A DNA stretch of 64,000 bases, taken from Spirochaetota bacterium. Its GTDB lineage: Bacteria; Spirochaetota; UBA4802; JAFGJZ01. Under the pieces are notes generated by a model that saw only the letters and a list, made by a program, of their open reading frames with translations, had not been told where the DNA came from and made no database searches. A program made the position numbers and the translations under genes. This document shows positions 2,857-58,055 of this stretch, one piece after another. Each line of letters opens with the position of its first letter. Within the stretch, counting starts at the first letter, position 1. The stretch covers positions 1 through 64,000 of the forward strand of contig JAKPJF010000182.1 of NCBI GenBank assembly GCA_029554345.1, given 5' to 3'.

Positions 2857-3383
2857 TCCATTCGCGAAGCGGAGATCAGATGAGTGACGAACGCAGGGTT
2901 CAATGATCAGAAATTAGCATAATGAAGCAGAAAAAATTACGCGTATGCTGAGCCCGGCGAACAAACGCGTAATGAAATTATAAGATCGATGATAATTAAA
3001 ATCAAAAAAGTGCGCAAAGCACTTCAGATAAAGAAGAATGATAGAATAAAATTAAAATTTGCCGAAGGCAAATTTATCTCTGATCGGAGCGCAGGGGTTC
3101 TGTCTGAGCCGAATCCGCCGTGTTTACAAAGGCGGTTCGGCGAGTTCTGCGCGACAAAAGCCGGGTAGGGATTTCAAAAGGGACAGGGCTGGCGACTGAA
3201 GCCCTGTCCTTTTTGATCTTATCGCATGAGACCATGCGAAAACCCGGTAAAGGGCGTAGAACGCCCTTTGATATTATTGCATGACACCATGCAGACAACG
3301 GATACATAAGGCGAAGCCTTGTGCGGTCGTCCGACTCTCGGACAAAACCGGGTAAAGGGCGCGAAGCGCCTTTTAAATGACAA
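2857..3383. repeat. Dense cluster of stem-loops (palindromic intergenic elements)
   Basis: No gene is visible between 2824 and 3482. The stretch holds at least nine hairpins: around 2861-2872 (CGC-GAA-GCG), 3008-3024 (AAGTGC/GCACTT), 3055-3075 (AAATTTGCC-GAA-GGCAAATTT), 3111-3138 (CCGCC/GGCGG), 3181-3209 (terminator-like), 3222-3239 (TCGCATG/CATGCGA), 3249-3269 (AAAGGGCGT-AGA-ACGCCCTTT), 3278-3293 (TGCATG/CATGCA), 3308-3320 (AAGGC-GAA-GCCTT), 3329-3343 (GTCCGA/TCGGAC) and 3355-3374 (CGC-GAA-GCG). Several close on a GAA triloop, and the unit (C)CGGGTAAAGGGCG followed by a hairpin occurs at about 3243 and 3347. Confidence 0.85.
3181..3214 (+). terminator. Rho-independent terminator
   Basis: GGACAGGGCT (3181-3190), a 9-base loop, AGCCCTGTCC (3200-3209), then T5 (3210-3214). 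The 10-bp GC-rich stem with a U-run is the strongest intrinsic terminator in the stem-loop cluster and would stop reading from the accessory genes before the ABC operon at 3483. Confidence 0.75.
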
Positions 3384-52452: not shown

Positions 52453-54090
<1,638 letters not shown>

Positions 54091-54095
54091 TTTCT

Positions 54096-54427
54096 ACAGG
54101 ATGTAGAAACATTGCCCGCGAGGCGGACGAAGTCCGCAGCGGGACAACGCAAGCAATACCTCGGAGATTGAGGCGTTAAATTGATTTAAGGTTGTATTCG
54201 GAGCGAACAGGAAGTTCGCGGAGATAACGAATCATTTTATTGATATCATTAGCAAATTTGCACAGGATGTAGAAACATTGCCCGCGAGGCGGACGAAGTC
54301 CGCAGCGGGACAACGCTAGCAATACCTCGGAGATTGAGGCGTTAAATTGATTTAAGGTTGCATTCGGAGCGAACAGGAAGTTCGCGGAGATAACGAATTA
54401 TTTTATTGATATCATTAGCAAATTTGC
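54096..54427. repeat. Two tandem 166-bp structured repeats
   Basis: Copy 1 (54096-54261) and copy 2 (54262-54427) differ at only three positions seen by eye (for example CGCAAGC/CGCTAGC, GTTGTATT/GTTGCATT, GAATCATT/GAATTATT). Each carries a stem CCCGC...GCGGG enclosing GCGGAC-GAA-GTCCGC, a CCTC/GAGG hairpin, GCGAAC/GTTCGC and GCAAATTTGC (perfect palindrome). Together with the insert and copy 3 this fills the gap 54091-54771, with no gene. GTTTCTACA/TGTAGAAAC (54090-54110) overlaps the pgi end and may act as its terminator. Confidence 0.92.
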
Positions 54428-54445
54428 ACGGAGGCGGAAACTGAA

Positions 54446-54570
54446 GAGACGCTTTCGTGCGAACTTTGAGCCATCACGATGATGGCAACGAGACTTTGTG
54501 CCAGGGATGGCACAAAAAAAGTCGAGCAGTCGCATATTGAAGCGTCTCGTATGTCGGGATCGTTCCGACA
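54446..54570. other. Cloverleaf-like structured element between repeat copies
   Basis: Closing stem GAGACGCTT (54446-54454) with AAGCGTCTC (54540-54548); second stem TGCGA (54458-54462) with TCGCA (54530-54534); hairpin GCCATC/GATGGC (54470-54486); hairpin TTTGTGCCA/TGGCACAAA with a GGGA tetraloop (54495-54516), extended by GAC/GTC over an A bulge; then an outside hairpin TGTCGG/CCGACA (54552-54570). All pairs are exact. It could be a structured RNA on either strand or a mobile palindromic DNA element. Not matched to any family I know. Confidence 0.6.
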
Positions 54571-54680
54571 GTCCGCGAGGCGGACGAAGTCCGCAGCGGG
54601 AGAACGCAAGCAATGCCTCGGAGATTGAGGCGTTAAATTGACTTAAGGTTGCATTCGAAGCGAACATGTATATCGCACAG
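54571..54680. repeat. Third, diverged partial copy of the 166-bp repeat
   Basis: Starts with the GCGAGGCGGACGAAGTCCGC core at 54575, then GAGATTGAGGCGTTAAATTG, and closes with ACAGGATGTG near 54686. It is shorter and more diverged than copies 1 and 2, and offset by 291 bases from copy 2 because of the insert. Confidence 0.85.
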
Positions 54681-54771
54681 GATGTGAACACCATTTTGTT
54701 TTGTTACGTCGTACATTACCATTGGGAAATGCTTTATTACCGAAGTCCTTTTGATACCATCGGAGTAAAAT

Positions 54772-57838: not shown

Positions 57839-57889
57839 TGTACCAAAATGGTATTCACCTGATGTACAATGATGGTATTCACCTGACAC
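57839..57889. repeat. 27-bp dispersed repeat, truncated copy plus full copy in tandem
   Basis: 57839-57862 (TGTACCAAAATGGTATTCAC...) is a diverged 24-base version; 57863-57889 is a full copy identical to the one at 58636-58662. GCGAAGC minihairpin motif follows at 57906, as in the 2.9-3.4 kb cluster. Confidence 0.88.
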
Positions 57890-58055
57890 CTTTCTGCTTC
57901 CATCCGCGAAGCAGAGATGAATTGAATGCCAGCTTTGCTGTGAACAGAATTGACCATCGACAGGCTTACGGGATTAAATGATAATAAACATATTAAATAT
58001 AAAAGGTTAAAAATATTGTTTATTATTTTCAATTAGAAAATGATTTGGTGGGACA

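Follow-up and report, generated by a model that had tools for sequence, protein, structure and literature searches.

A genus-restricted family of modular palindromic repeats, sampled downstream of pgi in a Spirochaetota bacterium, with covariation that supports a maintained fold

The window analysed here is a stretch of 64,000 nucleotides from a Spirochaetota bacterium (assembly GCA_029554345.1, contig JAKPJF010000182.1), in which pgi is followed by three copies of a structured repeat, here called unit A, with hairpins HP1, HP2, HP4 and HP5 and a module I. The features of the locus are as follows:

54090–54256, + strand: unit A, copy 1; begins at the pgi stop codon; covariance-model match at 54092–54226, 135 bits
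54090–54110, + strand: HP1 of copy 1, GTTTCTACA-GGA-TGTAGAAAC; covariation across copies
54115–54143, + strand: HP2 of copy 1, CCCGC / bulge GAG / GCGGAC - GAA - GTCCGC / A / GCGGG, with a C(GNA)G apex
54199–54223, + strand: HP4 of copy 1, CGGA-GCGAAC-AGGAA-GTTCGC-GGAG; tandem G.A-type flank, loop AGGA
54257–54422, + strand: unit A, copy 2; covariance-model match, 120 bits
54423–54441, + strand: HP1-like start of copy 3, TTTGCACGGAGGCGGAAAC, read from the sequence
54446–54548, + strand: module I of copy 3; closing stem GAGACGCTT/AAGCGTCTC and two inner hairpins
54553–54569, + strand: HP5, the outer hairpin of module I, GTCGGGATCGTTCCGAC
54570–54692, + strand: body of unit A, copy 3; HP2 at 54572–54600, truncated HP4 at about 54656–54680; 82.7 bits for 54553–54683

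The two 166-bp copies (54091–54256 and 54257–54422) are 97–98% identical and a diverged third copy lies beyond them, just as the first-pass annotation of the window had described, with correct coordinates. In copy 2 the 5' arm of HP1 is supplied, imperfectly, by the tail of copy 1. The annotation had also placed an insert between copies 2 and 3, and all its parts were located within 54446–54569: a closing stem (54446–54454 paired with 54540–54548), two inner hairpins (54470–54486 with a CGA loop and 54495–54516 with a GGGA loop) and the outer hairpin. The element is thus real, but it belongs within copy 3 as an additional module between HP1 (54423–54441) and HP2 (54572–54600), since other copies show the same order. 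An HP1-like element such as that at 54423–54441 also opens other I-bearing units, in which HP5 occupies the place of HP1 beside HP2. The predicted fold of 54436–54552 reached -48.2 kcal/mol against a mean of -28.4 for shuffled sequences (z -6.9), and unit 1 gave z -3.8 on the + strand and z -5.1 on the - strand; hence, the shuffled controls agree with the earlier impression of more structure than chance would give.

Comparison of copies revealed a modular architecture, in which HP1 is followed by the optional module I, HP2, a variable linker and HP4. A full single unit spans about 187–188 nt from AGTTTC to a GGTGAGG end (both ends are visible in copies C154, C146, C5 and C38, and a fifth lies at a contig end), and the tandem period is 165–167. 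HP1 takes the form GTTTCCGC-AYGGAK-GCGGAAAC or GTTTCTAC-AGGAT-GTAGAAAC; HP2 consists of CCCGC, a bulge of GAG opposite A, a variable 6-bp stem and a C(GNA)G apex; and HP4 comprises CGAA or CGGA, a 6-bp stem and an AGGAN or ANGGAN loop, followed by UGAG or GGAG. Several copies end in the tail AATTCAYGCTGGGTGAGGG. Module I, situated between HP1 and HP2, contains a pair of inner hairpins in the window copy, in C34, C33 and C11 and in C324 of the related genome G001 (see below), and is reduced to a short loop in C178, C197, C114, C153 and C135. The order is therefore BOX-like, with an optional module and tandem variation. A branched two-hairpin piece also lies inside the apical loop of HP4 in C33, in C154 and in C217 of G001, as well as in other genomic hairpins. 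Such a piece, CTCGGCGGC...GCCGCCTCG plus a second hairpin, was observed in apical loops (L084:1230–1330 vs L109:5420–5500; L204 about 1500–1600 vs window about 3200), and the hairpins that bear it are simple in the other species, which suggests insertion or loss of a hairpin within a loop. In L070 and L102, GCCCTCTCCC...GGGAGAGGGC directly precedes a unit whose end bears a GGGTGAGGG-like copy, which gives the left arm two possible pairing partners.

The genome-wide search that had been recommended as a check uncovered many copies. BLAST with copy 1 found 30 places in the bacterium's own genome and BLAST with the insert found 24, while a covariance model trained on 15 copies from outside the window gave 38 matches, spread over some 25 sites of the 3.03-Mb MAG; the count of 38 is approximate, because arrays break the assembly and many matches lie near contig ends, some of which may be ends of one locus. 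The same model gave 10 matches in Spirochaetes bacterium UR.bin167 (G001), the sole other genome of the genus, and none in 37 other members of the order or family; BLAST found no match in 57 other relatives, nor did the repeat match any entry in collections of phages, plasmids and viral contigs. In an exact-match scan of genomes the only real matches were those in G001; 20-base matches in five others (including Verrucomicrobia, Clostridia, Prevotellaceae and Homoserinimonas) were dismissed as chance-like, since the surrounding unit is absent there. The repeat is, hence, a genus-restricted intergenic family, and its dispersal, along with the covariation described below, rules out a purely local duplication, the outcome that would have emptied the first-pass reading. 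Two other kinds of repeats were also noticed. A second, commoner family of short chained hairpins (AAAGGCTTCGCCTTT, GCATGGATCATGC, AAAGGGCGTTCCACGCCCTTT and others) comprises 66 pieces in the bacterium's own genome, with members at window 3048–3302 (- strand) and L007:1300–1500; it often lies directly downstream of A units, and other repeated pieces flank A units upstream. At window 57839–57937 a 24-bp unit occurs twice, and 57863–57937 (minus strand) matches repeats on other contigs.

Covariance modelling, which had likewise been suggested, revealed strong covariation of the stems. RNAalifold, applied to a MAFFT alignment of 39 copies, predicted 16 pairs, 11 of which show double changes; 95.5% of cells are paired compared with 31–44% when partners are slid, double-change cells number 104, whereas shuffling leaves a mean of 32.7 and sliding no more than 26, and the covariation score is 0.487 versus at most 0.127 in slid versions, although the lead over slid versions is partly built in, as the tested structure was derived from the same alignment. 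A model-based alignment of 45 copies, which is biased towards the structure to which it was fitted, gave double changes in 16 of 24 pairs (169 cells), with 95.2% of cells paired and a score of 0.462. The apical stem of HP2 exists in 14 distinct versions, nearly all of them paired, and one HP2 pair was seen as U-A, A-U, C-G and G-C. Moreover, the loops are steadier than the stems: GGA is kept in 25/26 HP1 and 31/39 HP4 loops and the HP2 apex is mostly C(GNA)G. Outside the loops, conservation extends to the GAG/A bulge of HP2 and to the flank CGAA/UGAG of HP4. In seven copies of module I the fold is kept with a few double changes and no net covariation support in energy. A long-range helix closing around HP4 was rejected, since pairing within a unit's own copy was no better than permuted pairing (61% of permutations were as good). 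Given this strong covariation, the comparison of copies supports a maintained single-strand fold.

Sites common to the two genomes are usually occupied in both, with a different unit order or subfamily. At the adh site (C168/C203; flank 90%) the copies resemble different subfamilies and immediately follow a terminator-like hairpin with its T-run; only the congener has a toxin-antitoxin-like gene pair downstream (genes named by eye). At the locus of an MFS gene (C81+C178/C324; flank 80%) the order is HP1-I-A in one genome and HP1-A-I in the other, and at the greA site (C135/C311; flank 98%) units with and without I face each other. Near window 3385, which corresponds to C4 of G001, the congener carries a unit, whereas the window has only other hairpin modules. 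Two flank searches (C146 and C34b) found no clean empty site, one flank being repetitive and the other ending at a contig edge. This altered content at shared sites indicates that the sites endure even as their units appear, disappear or are exchanged, and together with tandem amplification and assembly breaks at the arrays it supports the earlier suggestion that the repeat is recombination-prone. The pgi site is also occupied in both genomes, the congener contig stopping inside the repeat, and the copy there is identical at 167 of 168 positions. Selection on the repeat was discarded as the cause of this identity, because pgi itself is 100% identical between the two species over its 3' two thirds: over window 52462–54258 (vs G001 C231, L082) identity climbs from about 93% to 100% towards the 3' end, and the 2 kb upstream stand at about 87%. 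The tract may reflect either recent recombination or shared assembly, reaching into the repeat.

The genes adjoining the units (assigned with Pfam) are mostly ordinary or housekeeping ones (AIRC, S-AdoMet synthetase, L13, SpoVG, GreA, RtcB, MFS, nitroreductase), and a few are of toxin type (PIN, HepT/nucleotidyltransferase) or encode a group II intron reverse transcriptase. A sequence resembling a group II intron 5' start closely follows one unit and interrupts HP4 of another (L149:1700–1809; L113:1–140). Inspection by eye of seven elements, the first 30 nt against the reverse complement of the last 30 nt, disclosed no terminal inverted repeats; the comparable 25-nt flanks show no target duplication, sharing words of at most 4–6 nt away from the ends, whose exact positions are partly uncertain; and the 96%-complete genome has no match to PF01797, the Y1 transposase (RAYT), while controls match. 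The family was therefore filed neither as a MITE, which would need the terminal repeats or target duplications, nor as a RAYT-driven REP/BIME. Thus, of the miniature mobile element raised in the first-pass annotation, the scattered copies stand, but its expected ends, duplications and RAYT-type transposase were not found. An integron cassette array was also set aside, as attC core sites (RYYYAAC...GTTRRRY) are not conserved (GTTRRRY occurs in some copies only; alignment by eye) and the neighbours are mostly housekeeping genes.

Whether the fold is maintained as RNA or as DNA is a matter on which the mismatched pairs bear. Among non-Watson-Crick stem pairs G-T exceeds A-C by 12:3 over distinct stems and by 19:4 in a second tally (nominal p 0.0013), as expected for RNA of this strand. 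However, the copies are related to each other, most of the excess is at the ends of helices, and three G-T stand against three A-C in the apical stem of HP2, so that one-step template switching on DNA could also create the paired changes. Units could then be functionless, neutral quasi-palindromes kept perfect by replication template switching; HP2 with its many full pair flips (A-U to U-A) and few intermediates fits such a process, which alone would not conserve the CGAA/UGAG flank, the GAG/A bulge or the loops, and we regard it as an improbable account of the family. We are similarly doubtful that the units are DNA hairpins of a REP/RAYT-like or attC-like kind, which a transposase or integrase would recognise in single-stranded form: structure is kept while sequence turns over, apical extensions are variable and branched, and group II intron and toxin-antitoxin-type genes adjoin some copies, but the missing Y1_Tnp, the unconserved core sites and the largely housekeeping flanks all speak against it. 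On balance, maintenance as RNA of the GGA-loop strand seems more likely than maintenance as DNA. Of the structured RNA proposed at first pass, the maintained single-strand structure is supported by covariation, with RNA as its more likely form. A crude survey of flanking ORFs found units in mixed orientation to them, and a strand-specific role as a 3' or 5' UTR element was rejected on these crude calls.

The persistence of GGA in loops whose stems turn over also recalls CsrA-binding RNAs. Both A(N)GGA in hairpin loops and a csrA gene are present: a canonical-looking CsrA is encoded once in the genome and adjoins a FliW-type gene (identified by eye), so that the A(N)GGA loops of HP1 and HP4 merit a test. 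Array transcripts might titrate CsrA in the manner of CsrB/RsmZ, or local mRNAs might be CsrA-controlled. Rfam gave no family at threshold; matches to the CsrB clan are sub-threshold (TwoAYGGAY 24.3 vs 43 bits, the sole match at the locus and on the insert; CsrB 16.5 vs 71) and hence not significant, though TwoAYGGAY has been proposed to bind CsrA (PMC4333381). Moreover, some loops read CGA, AGA or GTA, ACGAT is found in the main inner hairpin of module I, and the mixed orientation to genes is unfavourable. In bacteria with FliW, a protein already serves as the antagonist of CsrA. Dispersed CsrA-binding RNA is, hence, a long shot, and it would be quite surprising if these tens of CsrA-type GGA hairpins amounted to a CsrA sponge spread over the genome, or to a CsrA regulon carried by repeats, in a CsrA-FliW lineage.

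We therefore favour, with a probability of roughly 70%, a genus-restricted intergenic family of modular palindromic repeats, whose hairpin-chain units, single or in tandem, turn over by recombination while their fold is maintained. The family is dispersed and modular, grows in tandem, keeps its structure through paired changes and places differing units at orthologous sites. Units would spread and exchange by recombination between dispersed copies, perhaps aided by a mobilising enzyme, and the single-strand fold would be maintained, probably as RNA of the GGA-loop strand rather than as DNA. If co-transcribed, units would affect the adjoining transcripts as structured spacers or as elements for processing or stability, roles already reported or proposed for repeats of the ERIC, BOX and bcr kinds. 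Small palindromic repeats are common in bacteria, yet maintained structure has seldom been demonstrated. In the about 45 paralogous copies the paired changes are unusually clear, the loops are conserved and some hairpins sit within the loops of others, so that selection on RNA, on ssDNA or on neither becomes testable in one genus.

In kind, the family looks like the non-autonomous palindromic repeats of the BOX/ERIC/YPAL type, selfish or structural. Streptococcus BOX elements (PMC3049150) are likewise composite and intergenic, with end modules and an optional middle module of variable number, would form stem-loops if transcribed, and differ in length between strains. Unlike BOX, to which no related sequence was found, the spirochaete repeat lacks detectable terminal inverted repeats, is repeated as whole 166-bp units and carries its optional module between HP1 and HP2. 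The enterobacterial YPAL/RU-2 (about 168 bp) and ERIC/RU-1 (PMC2229807) are similar in size, intergenic and highly base-paired, and YPAL has internal inverted repeats; they belong to a different phylum and have reported target duplications, none of which was seen here, whereas the spirochaete repeat is a multi-hairpin chain that forms tandem arrays. TwoAYGGAY RNA (RF01731, CsrB clan), of which the repeat is not a member, the sub-threshold match being confined to module I, shares AYGGAY-like hairpin loops and a described tandem G.A stem (PMC4333381). By description, the family also resembles bcr1–bcr18 of the Bacillus cereus group, lineage-restricted intergenic repeats of which 40–51% of copies are transcribed within an mRNA (PMC3446304).
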